Below are positions 12,451 through 54,000 of a DNA stretch of 64,000 bases, in pieces. Position numbers and translations under genes: made by a program. Each line of letters opens with the position of its first letter. Position 1 is the stretch's first letter. The notes under the pieces were generated by a model. It did not search any database, was not told the DNA's origin, and worked only from the letters and a program-made list of their open reading frames with translations. The stretch comes from Liolophura sinensis (lineage: Eukaryota > Mollusca > Polyplacophora > Chitonida > Chitonidae): positions 72,018,984-72,082,983 of the forward strand of contig NC_088300.1 in NCBI RefSeq assembly GCF_032854445.1. The letters run 5' to 3'.

Positions 12451-14539
12451 TCAAGGGGAATATGCGGGTGGAGGAGGCATCTGTGCCAAGGCAGAAGCTT
12501 CAGGTCCGGTGGGAAGCAGTGCCTCCACCCCATCGTAGTCATCCAGCAACGACTCTGTCTGACTCTCCTCATAGATCGGATAACGACGCAAACAATTTGA
12601 TGCCGTCGCAAGAACTGCCACACCTCCCGCTGCTGCCACCAGATAGAAACTTACATCGAAATCTACCTCAACTTTGCTACTCTGTTTTATTTTTGTATTT
12701 CTCTGCAGCCTTTCGATTTCGGTGGTCACCCAGTATGTAAATCCATTTACCACAACGCAAATCACAACTGAAAAGCAAAAAACAATAACACTTGTTAATC
12801 TGACTTTCCTTCCTCACTGGTCTTCCCGCAACATGCGGATATGCCTGGTTTTCTCCCACAATAGAGCTGGCCGTCGTCGTATTAAAAGTGAAATACTCCA
12901 ATCAAATAAATCGCTAAATAATTTGGTTTTTCAGTTTACATAATAGGAAAGATCAGAAAAATGGAGAATCGAATTGTGAAATAATGAATAAAAGGAATGG
13001 CCAAATTTCACTCAAGGGGTTCTAGTATCCTTACAGGGAGGGGCAGACAACTCTGAAATTAGTGTGCACATGAGCTATGAACACTGAGATTATCTCTCTG
13101 TGAAGTTTAAGGGCATTAGGGCAAAGACGATTTGCTATTTGTTACAAACGCAATTCTCTGGAAATCTTCTGATTTACACTACATACCTGATTTTCACAGT
13201 ATTGTCACTAAATTACCGAGTACCATCAATTAACATGTACTGTTAAATCCCACTGGGTTACCTCCCTTGGTGATCACATTCCAGTGGTAGAATGACCAGT
13301 TTGACCATGGGCACTGACAGGTATTATTTATTACAGATTCTTTCAAGAGACTCAGTGTAAATAGTTAGCACAAAACTAGTAACTAGCTTCTGTTCTTAAA
13401 CAATTACATCAGTGTCCTTTGTTTTTAATGTACTTCCTGAAAAAACCTCCACCAAAGCACTCAAATCTAATTATATCAAACACATAGCTTACCATTCATA
13501 AATGTTTTTAATGCAATAACATGTGGAATACATTCAAATAAGATAAAAAGGTAATAATAGATATTATATTACTTCTATGATTTTGTAACATATGTATATT
13601 AAGATCGTATTTGTATTATCTGTTGTGATAATAACAGATATAACACTTGCTAAAAACAAAAAGGAAATGTCAGCCTTACAAGTTGCCAAGACTTTCATGT
13701 GAACAAATTTCTCATGCATTACCTGTTAGAATACTTAAGAAAGCATTGCGTCGAATCATTTTCAGAGATCGTCTCAAAGGCCCAATTAAATCCAAAAGGA
13801 AGGCGAAAAAGCTGCACAGTATCGCAAAGAAGATGAACCCAATGATAGTTTTCATCAGAGCCACAGCCTTTGGGGTTACACAATTTTTCATAACTGTGAA
13901 GAAAGAAAATGGAACAATGAATAAATACATGAACATGTATTTTATAACCATAAAAACTTACGAGGAACGCTTTCAGTGTAATCTCCAAAAGCAATAAATA
14001 TATTTACATGTTTATAATACTTAACTACACAGTTTATTTGTTCAACATTTTTCAAGGATACCCTAAATGACCTGAAATTTTGTCCAAAACTAAGATGCGC
14101 ATTTTTCCAGATTTTACGAGTTCTATAGATTTTAGAAAGGTGCTTTGAGGTGTTTAAAATGTGGGATGATATCCTACTGGAAAAATGTAAATTTTTAGCA
14201 CCAGAAGTAATATTTCAAAGAGATTTATTTGCCTCCAAAAATGCTCTTTTGTGGCTGAATTTCAGGCCATTTAGGGTATTTGAGATTTCAGCCGCACAAA
14301 ATATAGTCTAAATAACACTGAAGTTAATACAGTCCAAAATTATGTTTTTTGATGTTCACAACTTACGTATACTTTGTGGATTGTTGTATTGTATAACATT
14401 CTATAATTTCCGGTTACGAAAATTTCGTTTGTTGTTCTCCTATGCCCAATACTATCCCATCGATCCTGTATGATCTTTCAACTCTTCGTCCGCTATCCAC
14501 TTCTGCAGGCTATGTAAAGTGCCTCGATATGCATGGTCG

Positions 14540-14592
<53 letters not shown>

Positions 14593-15413
14593 CAGCCAAT
14601 ACAAAAGTGTTGCCATAAATAGATTGGAAAAGAAACCCTGGCGCCCAGCCTAGTACATCACAAACCTACAATTTAAGCATTGGCTAGGACAGTTGTAAAA
14701 CAAGTCACACTAATAGGATTCATCACTGGGTTACATCACTTTTGTTCATCACATTACCTCTACGTATTCTATTTAACTTTTTTTCCCATAAATACCTGAG
14801 TACTGCAATAACATGCTATAATCATTGACATTAACAATACTGACATTTACTTTTCTTAGCTAAACAACAGCCAGCATTACATGACGGGAAATGTGAAAAC
14901 GAACACAAGGAAAAGCAAGGAAAGTGCACCAAATTCTATCAGATCTCCTAGAAACAAAGTCACTGGGGTCAGATTTAAACTCTGATTCGCTACATCACTT
15001 GGCAATTTAATTCAAACCATAGATTCTTATATATACTTACTTCTACCAGAACCGTAGTGATAAATTTTATCTGCAGACTGAGTGTACTGAATGGGAAGAT
15101 TTTGAGATTTGTGTGGACTGAACGACGTCTCAAAGAAGCCACTGAAGAAAAACTGATAGGCTCCGATGTATCTGAGATTGCAGCCTCCGCCGCTCAGTGA
15201 AATCCACTTGGACTCAGCCAGGGCTGTACACAAGATTACAATCACAATCATGCTGCAAACGGCCGCAATAAAGTTCCTCTCCTTGTGTTTCAGACGAAAT
15301 CGACGGCTTCTGTTACTGTTGGAACTTCGGTGGCGATGCGGACGTGAACCGCTACTACTGCTCTCCCTGTGGACGCCAGAGTCGCGATTTCGTCTGCTAG
15401 ATCGACCCGGCAT
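12451..15413 (-). CDS. TMEM127: Transmembrane protein 127 (TMEM127)
   Basis: In vertebrates this is an endosomal/lysosomal four-pass protein that restrains mTORC1 signalling and is a tumour suppressor. Coding exons are 15413-15041, 13893-13723 and 12767-12451, with GT-AG sites and phases that close (1, 1). The product is 286 residues against 238 in human; the excess is a basic Ser/Arg-rich N-terminus. Matching blocks recalled from the human protein are CTALAESKW with a GG.C motif after it (about residues 62-76), FAILCSFFAFLLDLIGP (around 147-163), VSFYLVAAAGG and LATASNCLRRYP in exon 3, and a C-terminal PPPPAYSP. That last element holds a PPxY motif, the class of motif bound by NEDD4-type ligases. 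Four hydrophobic segments are visible. The start was taken at the Met before PGRSSRRNR; an in-frame Met five codons upstream is possible. An eroded SINE lies in intron 2 beside exon 3. MED28 starts 226 bp away on the other strand. Confidence 0.94.
12828..12912 (+). mobile_element. SINE (family A), eroded tail fragment
   Basis: It reads ATATGCCTGGTTTTCTCCCA, then GCTGGCCGTCGTCGTATTAA, then GTGAAATACTCCAATCAAAT. It sits in TMEM127 intron 2 about 60 bp upstream of the exon 3 acceptor, in antisense orientation to the gene. Confidence 0.7.
14058..14279. mobile_element. MITE-like element with 22-bp terminal inverted repeats
   Basis: The left end reads ATACCCTAAATGACCTGAAA and the right end, reversed, reads ATACCCTAAATGGCCTGAAA, one mismatch over 22 bases. 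The 222-bp element has no coding capacity and lies in TMEM127 intron 1. A TA at each border could be a target duplication of the Tc1/mariner type. A related interior occurs at about 27896-27990 (shared GATGATATCCTACTGG and TTTGCCTCCAAAA), so the sequence is dispersed. Confidence 0.65.
14545..14588. repeat. (AT)n microsatellite
   Basis: Alternating TA run of about 44 bases in TMEM127 intron 1. Confidence 0.95.
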
Positions 15414-15639
15414 TGTCACCTCAAACAAAGATCACCTGCGGCTGAGAGCTTAACAAGACAATGGGCAAAGAAAGATGTCGATATCACACATCTGGTCGTC
15501 CAGAAAAGCGTCAAAGTTGAGAGTTTGTCTTCAGGTAATTTATCACTTCCTTCCACGATAGCTTTCATTAGTAATGACAACGCTAGGTGGCGCTAGTTTC
15601 AGACTTCCGTTTCCTTTCAATTACCAGAACAAACAAAGC
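15414..15639. promoter_or_regulatory. Divergent (bidirectional) promoter of TMEM127 and MED28
   Basis: The two start codons are 226 bp apart on opposite strands, so both 5' UTRs and core promoters must lie here or overlap. No TATA box is evident. At 15603-15610 ACTTCCGT is the reverse of ACGGAAGT, an ETS/GABP-type site common in bidirectional promoters. At 15584-15595 TAGGTGGCGCTA fits the core of the CTCF consensus. Site functions are inferred from consensus alone. Confidence 0.7.
15584..15595 (+). promoter_or_regulatory. CTCF-like core site
   Basis: TAGGTGGCGCTA agrees at all twelve positions with the consensus core YAGRKGGCRSYR as I remember it. Two of the four preceding consensus positions also agree. 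It lies 45 bp upstream of the MED28 start codon. Binding is not shown. Confidence 0.4.
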
Positions 15640-17661
15640 ATGGCAGGTCCGCCAACCACTTCGTTTCCTTCTACGAACGCTTCTGGTGGTCATTTGGTGG
15701 AAGATTTAGAATCAGCTTTTCAGGTAGAAATATGATGAGTAAAGTACATGCAGAAGAATATCAAATTTGTATATGGGAAATAAATTTGTTCCGTCAACGA
15801 CAAATGTGGACTGTTGGAAATTGGCACTTGAGTAAGCTTACAGGTACCATCATTTTTGGGATTGGGGCACCGCTCTCGAGCACATCACAGACCCTCCTGT
15901 CGATCTAGCACTCCATCATAGCTTCCATGACTGATGTTATTTACATTCTCACATACATGTCTGTAATATGTATTTGCTTTCTTCACATAGGACTGCATAA
16001 AGACCCTCACTGCCCAGGAGTATTTTAATGCAAGTGATTCTGATGAAGTGAAATCAAGTAAGAAATCATGCCATGTCTGATGTTAAAGGAATGTAATTAA
16101 ACTGTTCGTATGGATGTCGCAGGACGAATGCAAAGGATGTTGCAAAGTGCATGTTTAATTACCAAAATACAATTGTAACAACTTTATTGCCCGATGCCAG
16201 AAAAATTTCAAGATGTCAGGGATCGTCCCCGCTGTGGACACTGGCACACACGGTGAAAATACTTGGTATGAGAACTTTCAACTTCCACTCTAAGTCAATC
16301 ATTCTTTATGTGGGAAGGACTTGCTGCAGGTTTCCCCTAGGCTGTGAAATGAATTAGTGCACACTCAAGCCAAACTGGTACACTTGGGGTACTTATACAT
16401 TCATGCAAAGGTTTTCAATTGTTACACAGGTGTAGAGCAAAACCTTCAGAAGTTTCTAGACCTGGCCAGGCAAACTGAGGCAGTATTTCTGCAGAAAAGG
16501 CTGTTGGTGTCAGTGAAAAAACCTGAACAAGTTGTGAAAGAGGTAAATTCCCAGAGGCTCAAGGTTTAAACAGTTTGTTTTTATCATAATATTTTGTGGC
16601 AAAGTGTTTACATCAGTGCATTGTTAAAATGTGATAGTTGGAGTGGCAAAATATACGTGCGATGTAAGGAAAATGTATGATCAAGTAACTGTATGAATGT
16701 TAAATTATATTTGTAATGGTGCATAGACAGCACATAGACACAAAATGTACATATGGCGTTAATTTGGTTACATGTATTTCAGGATACTCAACAAGTCAAA
16801 TTTACAATACTAACAAGAAATGTTCTCACTATGTTATGAATTATTACAAGGATGAAAGTTTGTATATCCTGTATTATCGAGGGCTTCCCGATGACGATCA
16901 TCAGAAATGTTGTTCTCAGTGCAGACAACAAGTCCTGTATGATGTAGGTTGTGGGTTCAAACCCATGCTGATACTGGTTGCACCCTCACTTCGCTGTATT
17001 CTCCACCAATAAACGTAGGGATACTGACAGAAATGCTCAGCACTGAGAGGTTAGAGCAAGGAAACAGGACTGATTGGCTCGACGTCAGTGTAATGTGACT
17101 GGGGGGTGTTGTGTGTGGTGCCTCAGTGGCGGCATGGACACACACACTTAATGACTCCCCTTCATCATACATGACTGAACAATTGTTACATACAATGTAA
17201 AAACTTAAGCATATGATGCACACATATATTTATATAAATAAAATAATAACACATACATAGACTCATGTATGGGTTCATCACATTTTGTACATGTACCAAT
17301 ATAATGTATCATTTTTTCCAAGGACATCCAAGAACTGAGGCAGGAGTTAATGCGAAAGGAAGCAATGCTTGTAAAACACCAAGAGAAGCTTCAGCAGTGG
17401 CAGAACCTGATGAGGTCTATACAGTCTGGACAGCCAGTGCCTAATCAAGCAGCAACAGGCCTATCTCACCCAAACCAACCGTCCCAACAGGGCATGCCCA
17501 CAAACTTACCCCACCCAGGACAGCACTCCCAACAGGGGCAGCAGCCTGCCTCCCAGTCTATGATGATAGGTGGGCAGGGACACCCATATAGTGGGGGACC
17601 AGGACCTTTGGCCTACCTGGAACAGACCATGTCAAATATTGGTATGCCAGAGAGACGATGA
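15640..17661 (+). CDS. MED28: Mediator of RNA polymerase II transcription subunit 28
   Basis: A head-module-associated subunit of the Mediator complex, which bridges activators and RNA polymerase II in the nucleus. Coding exons are 15640-15723, 15991-16057, 16430-16542 and 17323-17661. Phases close and the product is 200 residues (human 178). Diagnostic blocks recalled from human MED28 are LVEDLESAF near the N-terminus, [15 protein letters not shown] and [20 protein letters not shown] in exon 3 and its junction, [20 protein letters not shown] at the start of exon 4, and [11 protein letters not shown] near the end. The core should form a coiled coil. The stretch from about residue 125 to 180 is Gln/Pro/Gly-rich and longer than in human. 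The last codons (NIGMPERR and TGA) are the first unit of a 45-bp minisatellite that fills the 3' flank. The start is the first ATG after the shared promoter. Confidence 0.94.
16870..17150 (+). mobile_element. SINE (family B), eroded
   Basis: In MED28 intron 3. It carries a B-box-like GTGGGTTCAAACCC at 16948-16961 and shares CAGCACTGAGAGGTTAGAGC and AAGGAAACAG with the element at 28935-29168, which shows a tRNA-like head. The body differs from family A. Confidence 0.55.
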
Positions 17662-18540
17662 TATCTGGGACATGGGTTCTTTGGTATCCCTGAGAGACTT
17701 TGACTCTTTGTGCAGAACGACAGCATTTGTGTGGTTCATAGGTTTATTGGTTTATTGCCAGAGAGGACACTGTGTGGGACATACGAGTAAGTCCTGAGAG
17801 GCTCGGACACTGTGTGGCACATACCAGTCGGTCCTGAAAGACCTTGACACCGTATTGAACATTGACACTTTGTGAATTATAGATTTACAGGCATGCCAGG
17901 GAGAACAAACTCTCACACATTGCAGTGGTATCCTTTAAAGACGACGCTTTGTGTGGAACACTTATCGGCATACCAGACAAATGCTGACACTATGACATTT
18001 TCTGTAAATCATAGGTCTGTTGTTACGCCAGAGATGATGACACTATGTGTTGATCATGGGTCTGTTGGTATGCCAGAGGTGATGAAACTTGTGTGCAGAT
18101 CATAGGTCTATTGGTATATAGGGATGATGACACAGTGTGTGGATCATAGGTTTATTGGTGAGCCAGAGATGATGACAGTGTGTGTGGATCATAGGTTTAT
18201 TGGTGAGCCAGAGATGATGACAGTGTGTGTGGATCATAGGTTTATTGGTGAACCAGAGATGATGACACTGTGTGGATAATAGGTCTGTTGGTATGCCTGA
18301 GATGATGACATTTTGTATGGATCATGGGTTTATTGCTAGGCCAGAGATGATGACACTGTGTGGATCATAGGTCTATTGGTATGCCAGAGATCATGACAGT
18401 GTGTGTGGATCACAGGTCTATTGGTATGCCAGGGATAATGACACTTTGTGTGGATCAAAGGTCAGTTGGTGTGCCAGAGATGATGATACTGTGTAGAACA
18501 AAGGTCTGGTGGAAGTCACGAGAATTAAACACTTTGCATG
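17638..18540 (+). repeat. 45-bp minisatellite overlapping the MED28 stop codon
   Basis: About 18 units of 43-46 bases. The best preserved two, at about 18151-18240, are identical and read ATTGGTGAGCCAGAGATGAT, then GACAGTGTGTGTGGATCATA, then GGTTT. Units near MED28 are the most diverged and the central ones the most alike. The first unit contains the last MED28 codons and the TGA. The array lies in the MED28 3' UTR or just beyond. Confidence 0.9.
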
Positions 18541-18642
18541 GAGTATACAGATATTATAGTACCATTAATGTGTAACCGGTAAATCTTGTGCTAAATGCAT
18601 CAGCTTATTCCACCTACATGTACATATAATTACGCCCGGCTT

Positions 18643-18696: not shown

Positions 18697-19999
18697 CTGT
18701 TTACATGGACAAGCTTTTGAATGAATGTTTATCAATAATTTTTGAAGTAATATGATGTCCAGGATCTATATTGGTGCTGTTTTGAGAGATCCATTTGAAT
18801 CTCCTTCTGAACCTGTGTAATTGTGAAAACTTTCACTATGTTTATATGGTTTCTTGATGTCCTGAAATAGACTAATCCAGCCGTCATTTTGTCTCTAGGA
18901 TCAAATTATAAAAATGTAAAATTGCATCCGTTCCTTTTTTTCTTTTTAAAATTAAGACTGGGGGCAGACAACGCTGCATTCCAACAAAATACATGGAAAT
19001 AACACTTCTTAAATGAGCTTATGAGAACTGTTATTGTCTCTGTAGGCTCTGTGTACAACCAGGCTCTGTACAATAATGACCATTGGTAGCCCGCTGGCTG
19101 GCTGGCTGACTGACTGGCTGGCTGACTGACTATCTGGCTGGCTGCAACTATCAGGCCCTTGACCATTGAGGTCACCTTTTTAAATCAGATTATTGCTGAT
19201 TGGGCTGTGGTTTAAAGAGATTTGCCAGGTACCTGTTCGGTAGTTTTCTCTAGCCTCGCACTCCAGTTTTCTCCAACCATAAACTTTACTGCCATCGTAC
19301 AAGTGAAAAATTCTCGAGCACGGCATTTAATACCAGTCAAAGGAATCGACAGCTCCGTGTGCTTGAGATGCGTCGCAGTGTAAAAGTATACAGCACAGAA
19401 ACGCACAGTAGTGATGCCAATGTGAATTTTATACATCATTAACGATTTTATTCTTACTGTTTAAAAAAAAAAAAAAAAAAGTGCAGTGATGCTAGTATCA
19501 ATTTATTAGGCGTCCCTGGTTTAGAAATAATCAAAATGCCATGTTGTCATCACATTTGAAAGTTGTTGTGAACAACCTTGTACCCATCCAGGATAATACA
19601 AGCATGAATTTTACCAAACAAAATGGAATGTAGAGTTCTGCCAGTTACAGATAAAAAAGAACAAATCCGAACAGAAGTGACGGAAGCATTTGTACTTGGG
19701 CATATCTGTTTGGTGTCTTGGTCAGTCTCATTTTCACATCCCGCTGTGAACCCAAACAATCATCAATAACATAAAGGCTACAATCCTGCAAAAATAATTT
19801 ATTTGCATTTATTGGGAATGTCTTAATATCTACTTTTAAATTTGTGTAAATGTACAAATGTATCATTCAACAAGTTAAACACGTACATTCATACATGTAC
19901 TTATATTATGTGTTCATTTATTACACTGATGTCTTCCATCATACTTACGAACATTTAACTGGTATAATGACAAGCTGGTGTAAAAGAGTCTAGAGGTTG

Positions 20000-20832: not shown

Positions 20833-20842
20833 TTACATTACA

Positions 20843-21287
20843 ACATGGAGACCATCAAGCATACTATACACATACTATACTATAACTGTATAGTATGTAA
20901 CATGGAGACCATTAAGCATACTATACACATACTATACCATAACTGTATAGTATGTAACATGGAGACCATCAAGCATACTATACACATACTATACTATAAC
21001 TGTATAGTATGTAACATGGAGACCATCAAGCATACTATACACATACTATACTATAACTGTATAGTATGTAACATGGAGACCATTAAGCATACTACACACA
21101 TACTATACTATAACTGTATAGTATGTAACATGGAGACCATTAAGCATACTACACACATACTATACTATAACTGTATAGTATGTAACATGGAGACCATCAA
21201 GCATACTATACACATACTATACTATAACTGTATAGTATGTAACATGGAGACCATCAAGCATACTATACACATACTATACTATACAGT
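20843..21287. repeat. 57-bp satellite, about eight copies, each with a 10-bp palindromic stem
   Basis: The unit begins ACATGGAGACCATCAAGCAT and is repeated nearly identically 7.8 times. In each complete unit CATACTATAC and GTATAGTATG are exact reverse complements separated by TATAACT. The period is 19 codons, so one frame stays open for 202 residues. That is not evidence of coding. Confidence 0.95.
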
Positions 21288-31586: not shown

Positions 31587-34500
31587 ATGTCGGAAGTGAC
31601 CAGGCCTGCCACCGTGGTGCTAGTGGGGTGTGGCGTGAGAGGCCAAAATTACGCGTCATATGCATTAGCGCATCCCGACCGACTCAAGGTACGTCTGACC
31701 TGGGATAAAACATGCTGTGCGCAATACAAAACAACAGTCCTGCCCTTCCAGTCCGGATTGCCTCATTGACCTTTATCGTTAAGCCCTGGCTGGCTAATTT
31801 AGTAACGGCGTCACTCTCATAGCTCAGCTAATCCGGTTTTGATCAGTGCGAACGTCAGCTGCTTGAAACAGTCCCTAATGAATCGGCTGCACCTTTGCGA
31901 AAGACAGGATGTTAAAATCAAAGGACACCACATGCATCGTGTAGCGGTACTCCAGAGTACAGCCTTAAACGCCATATGTAGGCTATAGGGGCCTATCAGA
32001 TCAATAAATTATAGGGAAATAGAATTGTCCTCCGTCGATTTGATACCACGTGAACTATTATAGACAATTAAGCACAAAGGCTGAGGTGAAATTTAGAAAA
32101 GCTGTGCAAGAGAAAAAGTGAGCGTGTAAACTGATTTACGAAAAGCTTTGAATTCTGACTGAATAGGGAAAAGAAAGAGAGATATAATATATCTATATAC
32201 AGTACTGGTAGATTGTCCCTGGCCTTACAAGAATAACATGTATTTGCATGTAACTCATCCACGATATATAATTCATTAGGACATAAAAAGGACACAAAAC
32301 ATCATTTTCATTCAAATGAGGTAATCCAGGAAAATCAGAATTTCTCATTTTCAGTTGTGCTCTGTACATGTGCGTTATTCAGTTGCTATTCGTCTTTGAT
32401 TTCCTCCAGATTGTGGGTATAGCGGAGCCACGGGAGTACCAGCGCAACCTGGTGAAAACCCACCACGGCATCGAGGACGACAAAGTCTTCACAGGTTAAG
32501 TATAACCACATTCCCATTAAACAAAGGGTATTGTTAAGTGCTGAACAATAAACTCTGACTATATCGTGCATGGGAGTGATATGTTGTACATGTGATATGT
32601 GCGAGCGCTACGGTACAATTTTTTTTTTATTCTGATTGTTTCAGTGGAATTACAGAGGTCGTTAGAACTACTGGCATCCAACTGATGGTTGCTGATCTGA
32701 ATAGGGTCAGCTTGGATAATTGATTGAATCGATCATGAAGTAGCCCAGTGACCAAGCACATGGATAACGACCAAATCCTTCAGCACTTTTAGATTATTAC
32801 TTACCTACTCTTATATACCCTTTTCGCAGACTGGACGAGTTTGGTGTCGCAGCCTAAGTTTGCAGATGGTGTCATCATTGCTACCCACACTCGGCTTCAC
32901 CAGGTATATAGGTTATATATACCCTATATGGAAATCGCCAGGATCAGTTGCTTATTTGAGGTGGTACTTTCTCGAGATTTGTATATAAACCAGCCAATCT
33001 AAATAGGTGGATATATGTTTGTTTTTAACCTTTTATACCTTAGTTCTTATGTCCGTGCAGTATGTAAAGGATGGAGTTCTACAAATTTTACCATAACAAA
33101 ACGTACTGAATTCACCAGGAAGAAGATAAAACCATGTACCGGTAGTGTAAACATTATTAGCCTTCTCTATCTGCTGATGCATGTACACCAGCTCTCTGTG
33201 GACTGGTGATGCAGCTAGAATTTCACTGTCTCTTAGCATTCTAATATCAACTCATATACTGTGGACTGCCGAAGAGTCTGCAATTCCAGTTTTTTTCTTC
33301 TCACATATCAGCTCCCAAAGAACTCAGAGATATGCTCCACTTTCTTTTTGATGTATCAACTCCAAGTGAACTTGTGGAGAGTCTAGAATCCAGCAATATT
33401 TGCTGATGTATCAGTTCCCATTGGAGTTTTAATAAGCCTAAAATTCTAGCTTTTTCCTGAATTTTGATATCAGCTCACTGTGGACTGAGGAAGATTTTGG
33501 AATTCCAATTTTTTTGTTCAGACTAAGTGTTAAAATTGGATCTCGGCTTCATTTATGTGACCCTTCAGATTCTGCTGCATATAGACAGGGACACGGGTAC
33601 TTTTATAGTCGCCTATCAGTCTGTACGCAAAGAAAATAGTGCTGTTAACACTGCATGTAATAAGTGATTTGTGTGGGCATCCACACCACACTGGGCAATT
33701 TCCTTTCTTACATGTATGCAGGCTCCGGCAGTGGCATTTGCTAAAAAAGGATACCACATGATGCAAGAGACGCCCATGGCGGTGAGTTGACGACAGTACT
33801 TGTGAGCAGTTGGTTATCTGTAGCTTATGTTTGGCGATGGTCATGAATCATGATTACTTTAAATCGTAAACCTGATTTCACTTGCAAAAATGGTCATACG
33901 TAGTGAAAACTGGACAGGCGGTACCAGTAAGTATCCTAGATTGACTTTGGTGACCACTGCAATCCACACTCCTCTCGCTGTAATGCACACTCAACGAAAT
34001 CCACTCTCCTCTCGCAGCAGTCCACGCTTCTCTCACTGTAATCCACACACCTCTTGCTTTAGTCCACACTCCTCTCCTAGTAACCTACACTCCTCTCACA
34101 GCAATCAACATTCCTCTCACTGCAATCCTCATTCTTCTCCCTGTTATCCACAGTCGTCTTACAACAATCCACACTCCTTTCACTGCAATGCACACTCCTC
34201 TCCTAGTAACCTGCACTCCTCTCACAGCAATCAACATTCCTCTCACTGCAATTCACAGTCGTCTCCCTGTAATTCACAGTCGTCTCACAACAATCCACAC
34301 TCCTTTCACTGCAATGCACACTCCTCTCACTGCAGTCCACACTCCTCTTGCTATAATCCACACTCCTCTCGCCATAATCCACACTCCTCTCGCTGTAATC
34401 TACATTCCTTTCACAGCAATCCACACTCCTCTCACTGCAGTCCACACTCCTCTTGCTATAATCCACACTCCTCTCACTGTAATCCACACTCCTCTTGCTG

Positions 34501-37500
34501 TGATCCACACTCCTCTTGCTGTAATCCACAGTCGTCTCACAACAGTCCACACTCCTTTCACTGCAATCCACACTCCTCTCCTAGTAACCTGCACTCCTCT
34601 CACAGCAATCAACATTCCTCTCACTGCAATCCACATTCCTCTCCCTGTAATCCACAGTCGTCTCACAACAATCCACACTCCTTTCACTGCAATGCACACT
34701 CCTCTCCTAGTAACCTGCACTCCTCTCACAGCAATCAACATTCCTCTCACTGCAATTCACAGTCGTCTCCCTGTAATTCACAGTCGTCTCACAACAATCC
34801 ACACTCCTTTCACTGCAATGCACACTCCTCTCGCTGAAATCTTACAGTCCTTTCACAGCAATCCACACTCCTCTCACTGCAGTCCACACTCCTCTTGCTA
34901 TAATCCACACTCCTCTCGCCATAATCCACACTCCTCTCGCTGTAATCTACATTCCTTTCACAGCAATCCACACTCCTCTCACTGCAGTCCACACTCCTCT
35001 TGCTATAATCCACACTCCTCTCACTGTAATCCACACTCCTCTTGCTGTGATCCACACTCCTCTTGCTGTAATCCACACTCCTCTTGCTGTAATCCACACT
35101 CCTTTCAGTGCAATCCACACTCCTCTCGCTGTAATCTACACTCCTTTCACAGCTGTCCACTCTCCTGTCACTGCAATCCACACTCCTTTCACAACAATCC
35201 ACACCATCTCGCTGCAATTCACACACCTCTGACTTCAATCCACACTCCTCTCAGCGTAGTCTATACTCCTCTTGCTGTAATTTACACCTCTCTCGCTGTA
35301 ATCCACACTTGTCTCACAGTAATCCATACACCTCTCACTGCAATCCTCACTCCTCCTACCCCTTCCATCCATCCTCTGATCACACGTCCACTTCACCTTT
35401 AGTCTCGACCGCTTATGATCTGCCTGCCTGACGGGACTGGCGGTTTCTGAAAGCCTTTTCCATCATTTTTTCTAGCCTTTCCTTGTAGAATCGTGTTCGC
35501 CCTTCAGCTTTCACCCTCTTAACCTCAGCTTGCCCCTGTATGGCCGAAGTGGTTTGGACTTTCCTTCTCACTCGTCGCATTGTTTCCTTTCTGAGTCTGG
35601 CTGCATTGGCCATTCTGTGGTCCAGGTTATCTTTTACTTTTGCACGTTTCTGCTTTAGTTCTATGGGTTCCAGGAGGCATGGTTTCCGAGACGAGAAGGG
35701 GTTCCCGTCAAGAGAAACGCAGAAGGTCACAATGCCATAGTCCTTTCTTGGAGGGTCTCAGATATGCAATATGCTGTCTTCTTTGCTCTAGAACCTATTG
35801 TTCTGTCTCTCTCTTTAGCGGCTTCTCGAGCGCAGTCTGGAGAGAAAGAAGGAGATAAATATTTTCCACATGTACGTGGGTTCATTACGCCTTTGTCAAC
35901 ATATCACGTGACACCATTGTTTACGTCACGCTCTTTAAGTCAGGGTCGCATGAGAAAATGTTACTTGGCATAAAGGGATAATGTGACGCTGCAATACAGA
36001 TAGGGATGTTGTGTGACGTCACAATACAGACGGGGATAATGTGTGACGTCGCAACACAGACAGATAATATGTCACCCAACCTTCACTGAAAGGTGAAGTA
36101 TGCATAATAACGTGTTTAGTATCTGTGCATCGGTGAACAGGACATACCAAAGACTTTATTAATTGTACCTCGCTTGACCCTCACCATTGTGCGATTGGAG
36201 TAAGGAAACATAAGTGGCTGGCAGGGTGTCGGTATAATGTCACATTGTTTCCTCTGGCTATTCTGCCGTTCTCCTAACCCATTATGATTGCTGTGGCTAT
36301 TCTGCCGTTCTCCCAACCCATTATGATTGCTGTGGCTATTCTGCCGTTCTCCCAACCCATTATGATTGCTGTGGCTATTCTGCCATTTTCCCATCCCAGT
36401 GTGTCTTTTGTTTTCTCACCCAATTAAGGTTTGTGTGGTTATTGCTCCATTTCACACACCCCATTATGTTTGCTCTGGCTATTGCTTCGGTTCTGCTGTG
36501 GGATGGTCTGCCAGAAAGCTGCGGATGGTCGTGAGTTTTCCCCGGGTTTCCACCCACTATGATGCTGCCCGCCGTCATATAGGTGAAATATTCTTGAGTA
36601 CGGCCTAAAACACCAATCGAATAAATAAATAAATAAATTATGTTTGCTGTGGCTATTGCTCCGTTTCTCCCACTCCTTTATGTTTGCTGTGGCTATTGCT
36701 CCGTTTCTCCCACTCCATTATGTTTGCTGTGGCTATTGCTCGGTTTCTCTCACTCCATTATATTTGCTGTGGCTAGTGCTCCGTTTCTCTCACTCCATTG
36801 TGTGTGCTGTGGCTATTGCTCCATTTGTCACATCTCATTATGTTTGCTGTGGCTATTTCCCCGTTTCTCATACCTTATTATGTTTGCTATACTGTCCCAC
36901 CGAGCTGCTGCTTACAGTTAAGCTAACCACTATTTCAGTAGACCGAAATATCACGCGAAGTCCAGTTGTAACTTCAATCCAACAAACATGTGTACTTTAA
37001 TCCTGTGGTTTTAAAAGAGTAGAAAGCTGTAGCGAAAAGCTATTAATAACAGTGTTTCACATTTGCAGAGAATAACGATGAGGCAATACGACACATACAT
37101 TTTGTCATAACAAGTTGTTCCACTTGTAAGATAATGCTTTATTCCAGCATGAGTTATCTCCCTTTATTCGGTAAAACTCTACAATTAAAAATACTAAATT
37201 CCAGGGCCTATACATAACTCAAAGAATATGTGTATGAGCGTAATACATAAGCACACCTAAAATAAGACAGCAACAGATATGTTAAGCTCACAAGTTCTCA
37301 GACAACTGTGCACAGATGAGGTGTACCGAAGAGATACCGATGGGTTAGAAACAAAAGTCTCGATGCCACCGTAGCGTTCATGGCTACATTCTCAAAGGTG
37401 CGAAGATTTTAGGAAAAAGGTGATGAGTCGTAAAGTTAATGTAGGTATTTGAGCACAAAAAGTTACACTGTGGATGGCTGCAAGAGTGAAATTTAGGGTT

Positions 37501-40500
37501 AGGTCCGTTAGCGTCTGTTCTGATGTCAAATGTCAAAATACAACTAAACGTTCCTTTAAAACTGGAGAACGGTCACGATATCAAAGAAGAAGAAAAAACA
37601 CGAGACGGGTGGCAGCACATTCCTCGCCTGATATATCTCTGATAGATCACTGAACTAACTTCATAGAAATGTCAACAAGAAATGTTCTGGAAAAGAATGT
37701 AAACTCAATAAAATAATGAAAAGTTAATTCTGTAGAAACAAGAATTATCATCTCCGTGACAGGAAGAAAATTGGCCTTGGATTCGCCATTCCTCACCACA
37801 CGAATGTATCTGTCATTCCATCTTCTCCTGGAATGATATCAACGATGAATCCAGATGGCCACTGATTTCTCTGAAGATTTTTCACCTTGAGAAGTAAATC
37901 TCCGGTTTGATGTTTGGTTCATCAGATTTCCATTTACGACGCGCTTGAAGTGTATGGAAATACTCTCGTCTCGAACGAGTGGAGAATGAATCTGCTAAGA
38001 GTTGCACACGTTTCCAACGGTTTTTGTACATGTCCTTCAGATTGCACTATTCTATAAACTCATCACATTGGCCTGTTTTCTGATGCAGCAGAGTTCCTGG
38101 AGTTAAGATGAAGGGGTCCAGTAGATCTATCGAGAAGGGCACGATAGGACGTGCACTTACCATGGCACATAATTCTGCCGTGAAAGTGGATAAGACGTCA
38201 TGAGTGATATTTGATGCAGCAACGCCGATCTTCATGGACTCCAAGATCCTCTTGGTGACCCCAGTGAGAAGCTCTCACGAGACTGTCAGTGAGACAAACC
38301 GCGGTCTCATCTAAACTGTTTTACCGGTCCTCTAAGAGAGTGAAATCTATGGTGTGTATTTATGAAACTGGATGAGCTGAGTTCTTCAACCAGTTCAATG
38401 TGAATAGCTCTGGTAGTGAGACAGGTGAATAGAACTGCCCAACGCTTGCTGTTGATTTGGCCTGCTGTGGTGCGTCGAGTAACGATACACCAACGTCCAA
38501 AAATGTTGACCCCCAAGTAGGTGAGCGAGAGAAGCTATCCGACTGTCTCTGTGAGGAGGTTTGCTTTCCCGAAGTAATTTCAGTTCCCGGTTGTAGAACT
38601 CTTGTTGGGCTTGCTTGATTACATGTAGCTTGACGTCTCTGTAGAACTAGGTACTTGGGCTTCAAGCACGTGTGCCAACCTTTACAATGACCCTTACCCT
38701 TGAAAGACTGAGCATTGTGAACAGGCTAGCTATTGCCCTTAGAAGTGATCTCCACATAAAAAAATCGTTGGAATCTATGAGTTCCTACTAGTGTGTCTGA
38801 AGAAACGTTTGATTTCAAGCATGTCATCAGAGGTCTGACCTCTCAGTTTTAGTCATGTTCACTCAGCCTCTCCCAGAGGCATATGTTCCAAAGCACTTTG
38901 GTCCCGTTAGCCAGGAGGTAGACCCTATGTTTGCTGCTGGAACTGCTCGCCATCATCTGGATTAAGATGAGTTGGAACATATGACCATTTGTGTGGACTT
39001 TTGTGAATTTTCTGATACGTTGTACTCTGTTGGCCACGTATACATAGAATCTTCTAGACTCCTTATGGAGATATCCCAGTGCTACCTTACTGTCAGGGTA
39101 GAATTCCATTTCCTCCACTGGGACGTCCAGCTTCTCCGATACATTTCTGCGACTTCAACTGCCAGTAGTGCTCCGCAGAGCTCCAGACGAGGAATCATTT
39201 GTGCATCGGATGGAGCAACTTTCGCCTTACCAAAGATAAATGTGATACGATGTGTACCATCATCTTGTGGTAGTTTCAGGTATGCTACTGCTGCAATGGC
39301 CTTTTCTAAAGCATCGGAGAAAACATGAATCTCCTTTTGAGTTGAACACAAAATGGGGTTCTGACGTGGAATCTCTAGATTTTCAAGACAGGTTTTAGAT
39401 TCCTTCCAACATTGTCATTCCTCTTTCCGTTCTGGAGGTAGAGGTTCGTCCCATCCGATAGCACTGTCCATCAGTTCTTCCCTTGGATAATTCATTGATT
39501 CCACGAGTCCTGTGGGATCGAAAATGCTGTTTATTGTGGATACAATCCCACGACGTGTGTGTGGTTTGGTATCTCTAGAAATGTGAAGACATCCTGTTGT
39601 AGAGCCCATGATAAGCCTAAGCTAAGTTGTAGTGGAACTGTGTCGATACCAAGGCCTAGTTTCTTAGAGCCTTAGCATGGTGGTCTGATGGGAATGCGTT
39701 CATAACATCAGGGCTGTTAGAAGCAATCTAGTCACAAGTTCCCTCCCTGCTGCAAGGACTCCTGTGTGCGTTTCATGAGGCTGACAGCCTCTTCTACTGT
39801 AGGCCGAATACTTTGTCCATCGTCGACATAAAAATCTCTTTTAACAAAGTCTACTACGCCTTGCCCAAATTCTTGTGTCCCCGTCATGGCAACATGACGA
39901 AGACCTTAAGTTGCAACAGCTGGTGACATGAACACAGTTCCTATAATCAGCCAGTCCGTTGTCAGGATTGTTGTCTCGATACCACAGAATCCGGAGGAAT
40001 TTTCTGTGATCCTCTCGTACATGGAAACTGTCGAACATCTGTTCAATGTCAGCAATCACGGCGATTTCTACATTCCTGAACCGAAGAAGGATGCCTAACA
40101 AACTGTTAGTGAGGTCAGGTCCTTTCAGAAGAACATCATTTAAGAAAACACCCTGATTCTTAGCCGACGAATCAAAAACACCCCTAACCGGGTTGGGTTC
40201 CGTTGGATAATAAATCCCAAATAAGGGCAGATACCAGCATTCCTGACCATCTTCAAGAGGCGGTGTTAGTTCTGCGTTAGTCCCTTATCAAACACCTTTT
40301 GCATGAGGTCGACAAAGTGCTGTCGTTTGATTGGGTTTCTCATATTGTGATCAGGTGACTTGGCTCTTTGAACCGCTAGAGGCCTATTGTTCGGCAATCG
40401 CTCTAAACGGAAGAGGAGCTACCAAAAGGCCCTGTGAGCCTTTTGTAAGTCTCTTATCCATGATTCTGAGGAACTGACGATCCTGTACAGGTATGCCCCG

Positions 40501-43500
40501 TTTTTCGTCGTTCTTTGTAATCTGGGAGATAGACTCGTCTATGTCACTCTCTTTTAATTAGAAAGTATCCTTCACGTCGAACTTCTTTGGACATGGTTTG
40601 AACAAAGTTGTTCTTCCATATGCTAGAAGCCGTGGCTTCTTGATATTTACGCTGTCTGGCTTGTGAACCTTTCCCAGGTAATTTTCACCTACGACTACCC
40701 AACAAAGAGGTAGTTTTTGGCCATAGGGTGAATTACGTGCCTGTACGCTGATAACGTCTGCTCAACAGCAGAATATATGCTTCGTCGTCTGCGGGAGGAA
40801 TCTGTCTTGCGATGTCATGGAGATGACGATGGCGGAATGGTACTTCAAGAGTACCTATTTCTTCCGTGATCTTATTGCATTCAATGAGAGTAGGGAGATC
40901 CATTCTGAAGTCCTTTTGCAAGGCTTCAAAAACGAAGTCACTTATACTCTTGGCTCTTATACCTGACGTCTGAACACAGCCAGCACAAGATGAAAGGGAG
41001 TTGGGGATGTCGTTACCTTGCACATTAAACATCTCAAAAAAGTCTGATCTAGCCAGGGACACGTTGATCTTGTCGTCTAGAACAGCATACACTTTCTGCG
41101 CTCTTTCCCGTGCCACTTAGGTAAACTCGAACGAGGAGGAAGCGCAACAATGGTAGCAGATGCGATGTACCTTGATCGCTGTCTTCCTATCCTCAAGCGA
41201 CTTGGTTCCGAAGCCTTTGCTGTCATTCAAAGACTGTATAGTTTTGTGCATCGGGCATTTTGGTGTATGAGTGTTAATCATGGATTTTGCTTCATACATA
41301 ATGTCTGTTTCTGAGCAAAGACTACTGACCTCAGGTTTGGGTGGCCGGGTTTCGGTCTACCGTCAGTCTGGTTACTTACATACAGAAAACTGGGCTCGTT
41401 TTTGGTCTTACTGACATCTAAATTCTACGAAGAAGGAAAATGGTGGATAGGTGACACCTTTCTGTCTCTTGTAGATCGTAGCCTGATTTGTCCATTTCTC
41501 CTGAATGTTGTATGGCAGCTTACTCATTATAGGAGACACACCAGGTGAAGCGCCAAAGCACGAGAGTACAGTTTTGTGTCTCAAATCTTCCTTCGTGGCA
41601 TTACACAGGAGTTGGGCGAGGTCATATAGCCTCCTATGGTCCTTGTTGGCAAGCTTAGGAAAATTCTGCAGTTTTGTCCTAAGAACAGCTTCGACTAACT
41701 CTGGGGCGCCGTAGCGCTAATCTAGCCTCTCCCATACCCGACTCAGACCTCGTGGTGGGCTGCTGGTACTGGCGGCTCTGAGACTCGTGGCGTATTTTGA
41801 TGACTCAGGACATAAATATTTGACTAAACAAGTCTAGCTCTTCTATGGAGGTGACTTGTAGTTCTTTCACAATCACAGCAAAGCCTGCTTTCCATACAGA
41901 GTAGGATTTCGGCAGGTCGTTGTAGGATATAAGTCGAGATAGTAGGAGTTCCTTATTCAACAAGAAACGACTGATATCCAAGAAAAGTACTATCTGTGCA
42001 TGAGGCCAATTTAGGTGATGTGCTGTCATTAGCCGATGGGTGCAAACTTAGCGCCTTGGGGTTTAGTGCGGTGTGGAATCGGCGTAGTGTTGGTGATAAC
42101 TGCTTCATTAATAGGTCGAGGGATCTCTGTGTAGGAAGTTGGTATAGCCCTTGATGATGTATTTGAGTTCTGTACCGGTATAGATTCCACGTAACGTTGG
42201 GCACGTTCTTCGCTGTGGTCGACTGGTATGGAGATGCTTCCTTCTTGCTGAATTCTATACCATCCTGAGCAGCCTCAGCCTAAGTTCGCTCTGTAGCCAA
42301 AATGGAGTTTATAGAAGATTTCACAGAATGTCCTGATTTATTGACCTTGATATTCGCGTAGACACAAATGAGTAGCTTGACTGCCTCTGGTGTTAGCTTT
42401 AGCCCCGCTTGCCAGCAGTTTCTGCTGTGGGTTCATTGGCTTTCAATAAAGAGAGTCACGTTGACTTTCTTCTATACCATCCTGAGCAGCCTCAGCCTGA
42501 GTTCGCTCTGTAGCCAAAATGGAGTTTATAGAAGATTTCACAGAATGTCCTGATTTATTGACCTTGATATTCGCGTAGACACAAATGAGTAGCTTGACTG
42601 CCTCTGGTGTTAGCTTTAGCCCCGCTTGCCAGCAGTTTCTGCTGTGAGTTCATAGGCTTTCAATAAAGAGAGTCACGTTGACTTTCTTGTACGCTTATGA
42701 CGTATACGTTACGTGTGAGGAAAGTAATATACTGCTGTGATTGTGGATAATATGTCTCCATGCTATTCCTGATATTACTTTCAGTCTGGCGAAGAGATTT
42801 AACATTATTAACATAAGGTGTTGTTCCACGTTTTTCCATAATTTCTGTAACTTGTTACATTGTTTAATGCAGACGTTTTCATACTGTTCTCTCCCTGTAT
42901 CTGTAAACCCCCGCATACGTAACTGTCTATCAAGTAATGTCAGGTCTAATTCACTGTCAAGGTTATGATGCAAAAAGAACTGTCGGGTGACATAATGAGA
43001 TTATATATACTAATAAACCTCATTTTACAACATATTGTACATGTATATCTCTAAAGCACACTCTATAGGCATTGTCCGTTGCCCGTTGTGTAATCTTCTG
43101 TTGGGATATCTATCAACACTGCTGTGATGAGGTGCGGCTTTCGCCTGCTTCCTCTAGGATAGGTTCGTCATTGTCTATTTACTATACTGTCTCACCGAAT
43201 TGCGCCTTACAGTTAAACTAACCACTATTCCAATAGACCGAAAAGTCACATGAAGTCCAGTTGTAACTTGAAACCAAAAAACATGTTTACCTTAATTCTG
43301 TTGTTTTAGAAGGATGAAAAGCTGTAACAAAAGAAAGAAAAGCTATTAATAACAGTGTTTCACATTTGCAGAGAATAACGATGAGGCAATACCATGCATA
43401 CATTTTGTCGTAACGAGTTGTCCCGCTTGTAATCTAATACATTACTCCAGCGTGAGTTATCTCCCTTGATTCGCTAAAAATCTTGACATTTGTACAATTG

Positions 43501-46500
43501 AAAATACTAAATTCCAGGGCCTATGCATTACTCAAAGAATATGTGTTAAGCGTAGAACATAGGCACACCTAAAATAAGACATCAACAGATATGTTAAGCT
43601 CACAAGTTCTCAGAAAACTGTTCACATATCAGTACAGACGTACCGAAGAGAAAGTTGTAGGTTAGAAACAAAAGTCTAGATGTCACCGTAGCGTTCATCG
43701 CTAAAATCTCATAGCTGCGACAACTTGAAGAATTTAGGGAAAGGGTGATGAGTTAAAAAGTTATTGTAGATATCTGAGCACAAAAACTTATACTGTGGAT
43801 GGCTGCAGGAGTGAAATTTAGGCTTAAGTCAACAATTCAGTCGAGAGTGTCTGTTCCGATCTGAAATGTCAAAACATAACTAAACGTACCTCCAAAACTG
43901 TAGAACGATAACCATATCAAAGAAGAAGAAAAAACATGCAACGGGTGGCAGCACAGTGGCTATTGATCCGTTTCCCCACGCACAGTATATTTGTTGTGGC
44001 TATTGCTCCGTTTCTCACACCTCATTATGTTTGCTGTGGCTATTGCTCTATTTCTCACATCCCATTATGTTTGCTGTGACTATTTCTCGGTTTCTTGCAC
44101 CCCATTATGTTTGTTACAGCTATTGCTCCGTTTCTCGCACCCCACTATGTTTGCCGTGGTCATAGCTCCATTTCTCACAGCCCATTATGTTTGCTGTGGC
44201 TATTGCTTCGTTTCTAATTCCCACAATATTATGTTTCCTGGGGCTATTGCCACGTTTCCCTCACCCCATTATATTTGCTGTGGCTATTGTTCCGTTTCTC
44301 TCACCCCATTAGCTTTTGATTCACGGACGCCACATAGGTAGAGTAGTAAGGCCTTGAAACGACATACACCAAAGACATGCAAAAGTAACGCTATGGTCAC
44401 ATGAGGAACGGTCTATATGTCCGGGAAATAACTTAAGAAAGAATTATTCCTGAACTTTCAGTTGACCATGGAGGGATGTCAAGAGGTTTACAACGCATGC
44501 GTGGAGAATCAAGTGATGTTTTGTTCCTGTCACGTACTTCGGTACTCCCCAGCAGCCAGTAAAATAAAAGAATTAATCGACTCCGGTGCTGTGGGGGATG
44601 TTGTCAACATACAACATATAGAAATGGTAACGGAAATCTTTGAACACGTTTAGCAAGAATCGTTATTGACGGAATTGTAGCTAGCATACGTGTAATGGGG
44701 CCTAGCCTCATGTTTCCCTCGTTCAGATGTGTCGATCTCTATTGACAAAGATGTGCCTAATCACACTCATCATTTAAAAAACCTTACAGTGAATATTTTG
44801 AATTATTGGACCTTATTTATTCTAGCATTTAGTGAAAGGAATACACAGTTAAAACGCCAATTTGATAACCAAATCAAATACCACGTTAGTACTTAATAAT
44901 GAGATTGTTTTGACCGTATATGTTTGTTTTTTGGCCGTGTCCGAAGTACGAAAATGTTCCGAGCATGAAGCTAGGAAGTGTTTGTGTTTTTTTGTTTTTG
45001 TTTTGTTTTTTGACTGCATATGAAGTAAGGAATTGTTTGTTATTTACCGTGTAGGAAGTAAGGAACTGCTTGTTTTTTGGACTTGTCTGAAGTTCTAAAC
45101 TGTGGATTTGTACCATGTATGGATCTAGCTAGGAACTGCCTGTTTTTGACCATGTTTGAAGTATCAATGTGTTTGTAACTTTTTTTTTTTTTGGCCGTGT
45201 ATGAAGTACGGTACTATATACAGTACGCATGCCACAGTCCGGGGCTATCACCGTCGCCAGGAGATGTGTGGAGCTTTCGTGCTCGCTAAGTCCTGCCACG
45301 ACCTGGATCTCATCTCATACTGGATGGGCGATAAGAAATGTACGAGTCTCTCAGCATTTGGCCATCTAAGCCACTTCACGAAGGCCAACAAGGTAATTAA
45401 TTTAATGCAAAGAAAATAGGCAACGATACATGCGCCGCAAAAATAGTGCCACGTAATCAACGTGTAGATTGTGACCACAACAGACTTCAATTCAGCATGA
45501 CTGAGGCAGTAGTCTGAGATATTGAGAACAAACTGAGCGAATGCCAGAGTGGAAGCACCTTATTGCCCAGTATATTTTTGATACTTCAAACTGAATGTCG
45601 CAGTAACCATTCAAATTAAGCCATGTTTATGAGGTATAAGTAAGTCTAGTAGAAAACAAATAGTGGTAAGATCTATTATATAACGTTTGGCCCCAAAGCC
45701 GTAATCAGTAGACAATGTGAATTTCCTATATCTGTTTTAAATGAAATGACCAATCAATTGGGTTTCATATGTAAAGGTAATGAATGCCAGCCCGCGCTGA
45801 ATGCATATCCACTGAATGTCTGTCCACTGAATGCATATCCACTGAATGCATTTGCACTGAGTGCATTTGCACTGAATGCCTAATTTAAAAACTTTGAAAA
45901 TCTATGTTCTTATAGACGCTATTGGTAATGGCTTATCTTAGCCTAGACTACTGCTCAGAGTTGCCTTGAGTAACAAGAAAAATGACAATAGACTTATTTG
46001 TGGCTGTAGATCTCTGATTTGGCTGATAGGGTGTGTAAGTGTACATCCAGGAAAGTTACTTTCAGCATGACTGAAGGATTGCTGTACCATGTATCATTCC
46101 AGCCTCCAGAAGCGAGCAACCGATGCTGGGAATGTCCTGTGGAAAGGAGATGCCCATTTTCTGCCATTAAGAACTATATCGAACCAGTTAAAAACGTAAA
46201 TACAGTTCCTAAGACAGGAATACTTTAATAGATGAATGCATGAGGAAGCTTTCTACATAAAAGTACATTTAAGATGTTACACATACAACCAGATGTGTCA
46301 TATGATCTCACAATGATCAGCATATAATTGTTTATTTGTTTTAACATTGGATTCAACTTTTTATTTCCAACCGTTTTTCTTACCGTGACGGACGTTTTCT
46401 TTCACGTTTTATCATTTTATCTCTGAATTTATAGTCATGCTGTTTTATTTTATCCATTTAACATGTAGGGTTTCACTGGATTTCCAGTAAATAACGTATC

Positions 46501-51087: not shown

Positions 51088-54000
51088 CGACCTTTATTGG
51101 AAGCGGACACACTTTGTGTAACTTCAAACATGTGTGACAAATCTTTCTGCTGTATTCACTGTAACTCAATAAGCTTCCACCTTCCTCTGCGTTATTTCAA
51201 AGAAATGAAAAAGTCTGATGTTCTCGTTTAGCGTTGCACTAAAAGGGAGAGATAATGGTACTATATGCGGCTGGCCTCTTTCCAAGTTGTTATATTTTTT
51301 CGCTTAAGGAGCTAATGTAGTTTCTTCAGTGACGGTTTTTTTTAAGAAAGAACCTGGTGCGGGAAAGCTGCCAATTTTCAATTTTATGACCTATACATCG
51401 CTAGCATAGATAAAGACTCTCTTTAGTGCCAGTTTGGAACTTGCTTGCCATATAACACCAAAAGAGGAGTAAAACAACTGAGAAAAAAGTGGCCTTTCGA
51501 AGCTGTCAGCAGCTCTGAGTGGTAACTGTGGTCTGTTTCGCTTCTTGAAGTGCACATTTTCTGGCACAGGGGCCGATTCCCCGTCTGACCATACCGTGTC
51601 CTTTGTTTCTGACTCTCAATTATATGCAGGTGCGCTTCAGACTCAGGGACGGATTTCTTAAAGTGTAACTGTTATATGTCATTCATATAGGCCTTACTTA
51701 ATACATGCCAGACGGACAATGAAACGGCACATGTACCAGTGAACTCAACTCTTGTCTGCACTAAATTCTTTAAATTTTCTTCAAAAACATAATGATATTA
51801 TATGAAATTGCAGAGAGGTATTTTATTTTCGGAAATGACTCTTTCTAGGTTAGATATGAATAAATTTCGAACGAGACAAAATTTAAAAAGACAAACTATT
51901 GTTTGCGGGTCGAAGAGGTTACGCCTGGATGTACACGTTTTACCTATAATAAGCCTATAATAAAGCAGTTTGAATATCTGAAAGGAAGACGGCTTTTGTA
52001 CATGGACTTTCTAATACTATTTTTATTTATTGATTTGACTGGTGTTTTACGCCGTACTCAAGAATATTTTACTTAAAGTCAACCATATATTGACACTCGT
52101 GAAATTATTACAGGAAATTTCACAATTTCCCATAAGTCTACCATCCAAGTACTTTACATTTCGATAACCCCTCTATAATTCCCAAGTTTCATACAGCCCA
52201 GAAAACGACTGTTTCGTGGATCTTATTGGTAACGGACACAGTCCTTCTCATTTTATCATTCATTTCGCCATGGCATTGTCGTCGCACATTGATAACGTTT
52301 ATCAGTATTGACATTCATTAATTTTTAAGTGTCTGTCCCTCCCTGGGTTTAAACATTTAATTTCCAATAGTAGATGGCTGACAAACTATTATATGCATAT
52401 ATGATTAATATGGACAGTGTCCAGAATCTCTGGTACTCTGCTTATAATTGTGCCTGGTTCCGCTTACCCGAGACCAGGGGCTGTATTTACAGCATGTTGA
52501 AATATATCACCACGTTGTATATATGAACAGTTGCAGTCAACGCACAAATAACTGAGATACATATTTGCTAAACGACAACTTATAACCCAGCATGATGTGC
52601 GACTTGTATAGTGATTTAGTTTATACACCTGTTCTTTGTCTTTTTCCGTTCAGCACTGAAGACTATTGCTCACTTCTCTTTGCACGAATACATCACACTT
52701 CCTTACCTGATATCCTTTCCTAGTTCTTGGTGGTTTATGTCGAACTTGATCGTATAATTAAGAACTTCAAAAAGCTACTAGCTACTAAAAAAACAGTAAT
52801 GACGGGTTCAAGCTGGCATTTCTTTTTTGAACTATTGGTACATTTTGATTCAGCTTCCAAAACTGCATTACGACAAATCGCTAACGGTGTAGAAATATAT
52901 GACTACAAACGAAATTGAAGGTCACATGACACTTTCAACGAATATGCCTAGCCTCTGTGCACATGCAGTTTAAATTTCAGCTCAGTCGGTTGAGTTGTTT
53001 TAGGGAAAGGGCTTTCGTCTAAAAATCACACCAAAAGTTTTATATACCCATATACTGGTCTATAACAAAAGAGGTTTCATTAATTTCTGTTTTTGCTGCA
53101 GACATGACACAAATTAACTTCCTGAGTCCTAAGCATGAAATACATTAAAAACTTTTTGAGACGTCATGTTTTCGGCCAACTTTAAAGGTTCAACGAATTT
53201 TCAATGCAATTAGTTCATTGACAAAAGTTCACAAAATGCAGAAAGTCACGTGACCAAATTTGCCCCATTTTCACATCGCAATGCTTTTAGGTCTACCCTA
53301 ACACATACCTGTCTTATTAAAATCGGATAGCATCTACTGCCACTATTGCCGGTAATAAAAATACCTAGAACTAGACATACTAGACACACCATTCAAATCT
53401 ATCAACTCTATGCTCTTTTGAAAGATGCCAGGTTTTTCTGATGCGATTAAGAAACAGACGTAATCCATATTGGACAATGAACTCTCCTCCGCACGAGGAA
53501 ATTACATTTACTTCGGCAAACGAGTACAAATTTTCATAAGTCGAAGTAGAGGTGTGCCTTCATTAATATTCAGATAACTTACCCAAAGGCAGCGTGTCGA
53601 CCACGAAGTCTCGCATTCTCAACGACAAAAAAAGTTAGCAATACCAGAAATGCGTGTTATTATACGGCTTCCAATCGTTCTTCACACACGGTTTTCGGCG
53701 TCTGCTTCCGAGCAAATCTCAGTTATGAACAAAGTTAATCTTCACGCTCATATTTTTTTCTGTTTTCGTACAAAACTAACATTGTATGATGGAAATTGCA
53801 CATATGTTGGAAAAGTAAAATTGTTTTATGCATGATTATGTACAGAGATAGAGTAAAAGATACATTTGAACAGTGCAACGGCTCTAACATGGTGGCAAGA
53901 AGGAAGTTATCATTCAAAATAATGAATAGTACAGGTGCAAATGTGTATATATTACACGTACACTCACCCAAACGGAAATGTAAGTATAATACAGTGTTCG

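Follow-up and report, generated by a model that had tools for sequence, protein, structure and literature searches.

A minisatellite at the end of the MED28 gene of Liolophura sinensis, probably derived by tandem duplication of a segment spanning the stop codon

The coding end of the MED28 gene of Liolophura sinensis, together with its stop codon, is the first unit of a minisatellite in the stretch of 64,000 nucleotides analysed here (the window). Very probably, tandem duplication of a segment at the end of the gene spanning the stop codon gave rise to this minisatellite in the presumed 3' UTR and left the protein unchanged. A short segment of the last exon, made up of its last codons, the TGA and adjoining bases of the 3' UTR, would have been duplicated first; since this segment contains the stop codon, the first copy would end the protein at the same place, and selection on the protein would not see the extra copies that follow the stop. 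Slippage or unequal exchange would then have enlarged the array in the presumed 3' UTR until it had about 20 units. A net 2-nt change that arose in a later unit would have propagated across the 3' part of the array, where the inherited TGA would then no longer lie in the unit frame. Continuing exchange would have kept the middle of the array homogeneous, the units on the gene side and at the far end would have decayed, and selection on the protein would hold unit 1 near the original sequence. The features are summarized in Table 1.

Table 1. Positions in the window of the MED28 coding exons and of the parts of the array at the end of the gene
Feature	Position	Strand	Basis
MED28 exon 1, coding part	15640..15723	+	inferred from frame and GT/AG sites
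MED28 exon 2	15991..16057	+	inferred from frame and GT/AG sites
MED28 exon 3	16430..16542	+	inferred from frame and GT/AG sites
MED28 exon 4, coding part including the protein end	17323..17661	+	inferred from frame and GT/AG sites
Array unit 1 (MED28 coding end and stop)	17637..17669	+	wraparound alignment, core profile
Decayed proximal units	17662..18006	+	wraparound alignment, score against shuffles
Array unit 2, core part (FGIPERL-TGA)	17680..17703	+	MED28-frame translation, sequence match
Core array, 11 units of 43-46 bp	18007..18495	+	TRF, wraparound alignment
Last decayed unit (68% to consensus) and 7-base partial unit	18496..18547	+	wraparound alignment

The window carries an apparently intact MED28 gene on its + strand, whose four exons, when joined, encode a predicted protein of 200 amino acids. 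This protein belongs to the Pfam family Med28 (PF11594; E 8.5e-34, 116.5 bits against a cut-off of 29) and matches three solved chains of Mediator subunit 28 in the PDB (E 1.1e-34 to 3.4e-34). On the - strand of the same window lies an exon of TMEM127 (12454-12813, Pfam E 4.9e-21), and an open stretch at 15030-15431 on that strand, which has no Pfam match, may be the first exon of TMEM127, an arrangement that would set TMEM127 head-to-head with MED28.

The printed whole-protein alignments with the PDB chains end at residues 129 and 121, and the tail of the MED28 protein lies outside them. One solved chain, 7emf_1, which we take to be the human MED28 chain, reads ...GSLAYLEQASANIPAP four residues before the chain end, and the aligned tail has its counterpart three residues before the end of the protein; a second chain, 8t1i_W, has AFLEQ where 7emf_1 has AYLEQ. 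Past LAYLEQ the likeness is short, consisting of N, I and P only, which lie inside or at the edge of unit 1. The tail pieces score 4.6 and 3.1 bits in the two chains that have a tail (the third is truncated), values that are not significant alone, and the equivalence of the tails is argued from their collinearity with the strong domain match, the tail score being weak. A vertebrate MED28 chain of known structure thus stops at the equivalent place, although the likeness in the tail itself is weak. Since a solved chain has an equivalent tail, the MED28 coding end in the chiton was probably not made by the array. Searches for MED28 relatives in a viral collection (three stretches fitted a pattern, none confirmed) and in a prokaryote collection (13 stretches fitted, none confirmed) are uninformative about conservation in animals.

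The array was detected by TRF at 18008-18494 with a period of 45, 10.9 copies and 82% matches, and wraparound alignment to the unit widened it to 17637-18547, or about 20 units including the decayed ones, which make up roughly half. These positions are essentially those of the preliminary description, which had been made from the letters of the window and placed the array at 17638..18540. With head-to-tail units of at least 7 bp in one local array, it is a minisatellite. The successive core units measure 45, 46, 44, 45, 45, 43, 45, 43, 45, 45 and 43 bp (45 in six of the 11), with a mean pairwise identity of 0.83 and 82-96% identity to the consensus, and the adjacent units at 18142 and 18187 are identical. 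The core is more homogeneous than both edges of the array, and this, together with the two identical adjacent units, is as expected under continuing exchange. When the decayed zone between the coding end and the core was aligned with the unit, it scored 100, far above both 60 shuffles (22 +/- 4.4, at most 34) and 60 stretches taken at random from the window (26 or less), and this zone is therefore also derived from the array; several of the proximal unit boundaries are uncertain.

Several comparisons identify the coding end of MED28 as a unit of this array. The 17 consecutive bases at 17637-17653 are identical to the core consensus, and a profile built from the 11 core units alone finds 17637-17663 with E = 0.0022 in the 64 kb window. 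This is the second-best place outside the core; the best is 17736-17776 (E 3.1e-5), the third, 17671-17695 (E 0.35), lies at about the beginning of unit 2, and no other place in the window has an E better than 1.3. These results agree with the preliminary description, in which the last codons of MED28 were taken to be the first unit. All 16 bases of ATTGGTATGCCAGAGA match in unit 1, compared with 13, 10, 12, 5 and 12 in five proximal units compared without gaps and 9 to 16 in the 11 core units, one of which has all 16. In local alignment, unit 1 scores 28 and 35 against two core stretches (tiles up to 37) and 30 and 33 against units 2 and 4, and a tile outside the array at 51696 also reaches 28 against unit 1. 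Unit 1 is therefore about as near to the core as to units 2 and 4, or nearer, which is expected if unit 1 and the core consensus stayed near the ancestor and the proximal units decayed, although it is not proof. A global MAFFT alignment gave unit 1 identities of 0.22 to unit 2, 0.59 to unit 4 and 0.52-0.57 to core units; it misplaced the decayed units and was unusable there, and the local alignments and pattern counts were used instead.

The stop codon is common to units 1 and 2. The sequence of unit 2 at 17681-17703, TTGGTATCCCTGAGAGACTTTGA, is identical at 19 of 23 positions to the MED28 coding end with its stop, lies 42 bp further on and, in the MED28 frame, gives FGIPERL-TGA. No other + strand place in the window matches the 23 bp of coding end and stop as well; the next best score, 16, was obtained at six places, of which three belong to the array, and the best on the other strand is 15. 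When the 64 bases that follow the stop (17662-17725) were base-shuffled 5000 times, 19 of 23 was never reached. Three proximal units, at 17689, 17793 and 17833, have the form CCTGARAGRC...GAC, which unit 1 resembles. A pattern made from these three, drawn up with unit 1 already seen, has two mismatches to unit 1 over its 14 set positions; with two mismatches allowed, it has eight matches in the window, where 1.44 are expected and none of 100 shuffles reaches eight, and four of the eight are unit 1 and the three source units, with none in the core.

At the site of the stop, the core units lack a net 2 nt relative to unit 1, so the inherited TGA falls outside the frame of the unit itself. Since unit 2 has its stop in the same frame as unit 1, the TGA is not a private change of unit 1, and the later units probably lost an in-frame TGA, rather than unit 1 having gained one. 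The preliminary description had proposed that unit 1 acquired its TGA by a small change relative to the later units; the difference is real, and its direction is probably the reverse, unit 2 having kept the in-frame TGA. The 2-nt difference and unit 2 are the main basis of the proposed order of events, since the local scores do not favour the proximal units.

The same evidence bears on the opposite order, in which the C-terminus came from a minisatellite that the 3' flank already contained: the old stop would have been lost, translation would have run into the first unit, and a new TGA would have arisen there. The 17 bases common to unit 1 and the core consensus, the 2-nt difference at the stop and the weakness of the cross-species tail likeness when it is taken alone all fit such an order. 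However, N, I and P are shared with the solved MED28 chain, whose end is at the equivalent place, and unit 2 also has the stop in the same frame, so that the stop is not private to unit 1; we regard this order as improbable. The preliminary description had left two alternatives side by side: growth of the array from the coding end outward into the 3' flank, and creation of the present C-terminus by the array. The equivalent tail of the solved chain and the in-frame stop of unit 2 speak for the former, and no support was found for the latter.

A search of the window with 17662-18547 by blastn gave no hits outside the array, at a threshold that also misses the coding end. In a search of the whole genome (609 Mb, 632 contigs) with a dimer of the unit, all five matches were in the core of this array; one candidate region was scored and common words were skipped, so that the counts are lower bounds, and the coding end and the decayed units are likewise absent from the matches. 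No second allele of the array was seen in this search of one assembly. By these window and whole-genome searches, the latter giving lower bounds, the array does not belong to a dispersed satellite family, and no copy elsewhere as an independent satellite, which the preliminary description would have held against a derivation from MED28, appeared among the genome matches, again lower bounds.

Dispersed repeats do occur in the window. Arrays at 36255-36398, 36637-36888 and 43956-44311 have a related unit of 39-40 bp (TGTGGCTATTGCTCC...), are 69-84% alike in the hits printed and form, as judged from these hits, a dispersed minisatellite family. Among the other repeats, an array at 20842-21283 (57-bp unit, 7.8 copies, 97% matches) lies within an open stretch of 212 codons and also aligns with its own reverse complement (67-69% in the printed hits), and an array at 33955-35355 (21-bp unit, 67 copies) has an open stretch of 472 codons and shows strong strand asymmetry (GC skew -0.48 over 34001-36000). 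A 217-bp unit is present in two tandem copies with 98% matches at 42253-42688, and a remnant of a Pao-type retrotransposon lies on the - strand at 39085-39414 (Pfam Peptidase_A17, E 1.8e-21).

The three related arrays give some ground for supposing that the array at MED28 was likewise brought by a mobile element or is part of a dispersed satellite family, its likeness to the coding end being due to chance or conversion. Against this stand the lack of any copy beyond the locus in the window or among the whole-genome matches (lower bounds) and the position of the likeness, which is at the edge of the array, in register with it and reaches into unit 2, and we give such an origin very little credence.

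The array extends from the stop codon to the neighbourhood of an ATTAAA at 18524, which lies within the last decayed unit. This is the only ATTAAA from the stop codon to 20000, where there is no AATAAA, and weaker variants of the signal start at 18907; it is likely the poly(A) signal of the gene, and the array thus probably lies within the presumed 3' UTR. The ATTAAA sits where the consensus has ATGATGACA, and the putative signal may itself stem from a repeat. The core folds slightly better than its shuffles (z = -1.69, with 4 of 100 shuffles folding as well), no Rfam family reached its gathering score in the window, and a tRNA scan of the window found nothing. The fold energy is the point in favour of a present regulatory role of the array as RNA structure in the 3' UTR, whatever its origin; the weakness of this signal and the lack of an Rfam family at gathering score in the window make such a role very unlikely, although it would be compatible with duplication of the MED28 end.

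The preliminary description had the minisatellite keep the reading frame with a period of 15 codons. This does not hold for units of 43-46 bp: a motif search, which overlooked the core unit at 18110 and several decayed ones, located 14 units, of which eight are in the MED28 register, two are shifted by one and four by two. Read in their own registers, the 14 units meet stops at 17659, 17701, 17985, 18103, 18277, 18368 and 18573, and the core has 6 to 14 stops in each of the six frames. The 50 substitutions from the consensus in the core comprise, in the frame of that description, 40 nonsynonymous and 10 synonymous changes, compared with 37.7 and 11.9 expected without constraint, and the variant cells are distributed 18/18/14 over the codon positions; no coding constraint was thus seen in the core repeats. 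The array is not a constrained coding tandem repeat in frame without stops. Its period divisible by three is unremarkable: 7 of the 14 arrays of the window, hand-listed from TRF at a period of 15 or more with one row per array, have such a period (P = 0.15 for one in three).

No support was accordingly found for the suggestion that the tail was once longer. Of the explanations considered, the least probable is a longer MED28 tail of 15-residue units, with the repeats translated in the past or even now in some alleles: the consensus unit has one open forward frame and stop-to-stop stretches reach 79 amino acids on the forward strand of the array, but we calculate that a given frame of a 45-bp unit would be open about half the time, and across the core the other strand has the longest open stretch, 73 codons against 57. 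The core has no synonymous excess, and register shifts and stops recur along the array.

Duplication of the MED28 end followed by amplification looks like the birth of a minisatellite of the ordinary kind, a clear example of a known process in which the seed is identifiable. Minisatellites are described as originating by slippage or unequal exchange when a unique sequence is duplicated and then amplified (PMC6947457; PMC2820488), and in the model of Haber and Louis short direct repeats of 5-10 bp flank the seed. The MED28 array resembles this model in the duplication and amplification of a unique sequence; flanking direct repeats were not identified, the first junctions being decayed. The 3' VNTR of human SLC6A3 (DAT1), given as a 40-bp unit in 3-11 copies (PMC9909461), is likewise a short-unit minisatellite after the stop codon of a gene. 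Unlike that comparison, the first unit of the MED28 array is the coding end itself with its stop, and the array is known from the sequence of one assembly. In titles and abstract openings among the matches listed for minisatellites, stop-spanning repeats, MED28/mediator and molluscs, the array is undescribed, and the phrase 'spans the stop codon' for repeats is absent among the matches listed (best 12 of 4,644).

Since unit 1 is both the coding end and a repeat unit, exchange with a later unit could give MED28 a new tail. Entry in the homologous frame into the 13 later located units would add 7 to 72 residues before the next stop. We see a small chance that unequal exchange or conversion between unit 1 and a later unit has swapped the stop, and that natural alleles with differing MED28 C-termini exist.

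The seed of this minisatellite would still be identifiable because its first copy is coding and was apparently kept while its neighbours decayed. The array would thus illustrate a simple rule, namely that a tandem duplication including the stop codon leaves the protein unchanged, and arrays can therefore arise at the ends of genes without being exposed to selection on the protein. The case raises the question of whether gene ends may be favoured birthplaces of minisatellites, with first units that overlap a stop codon.
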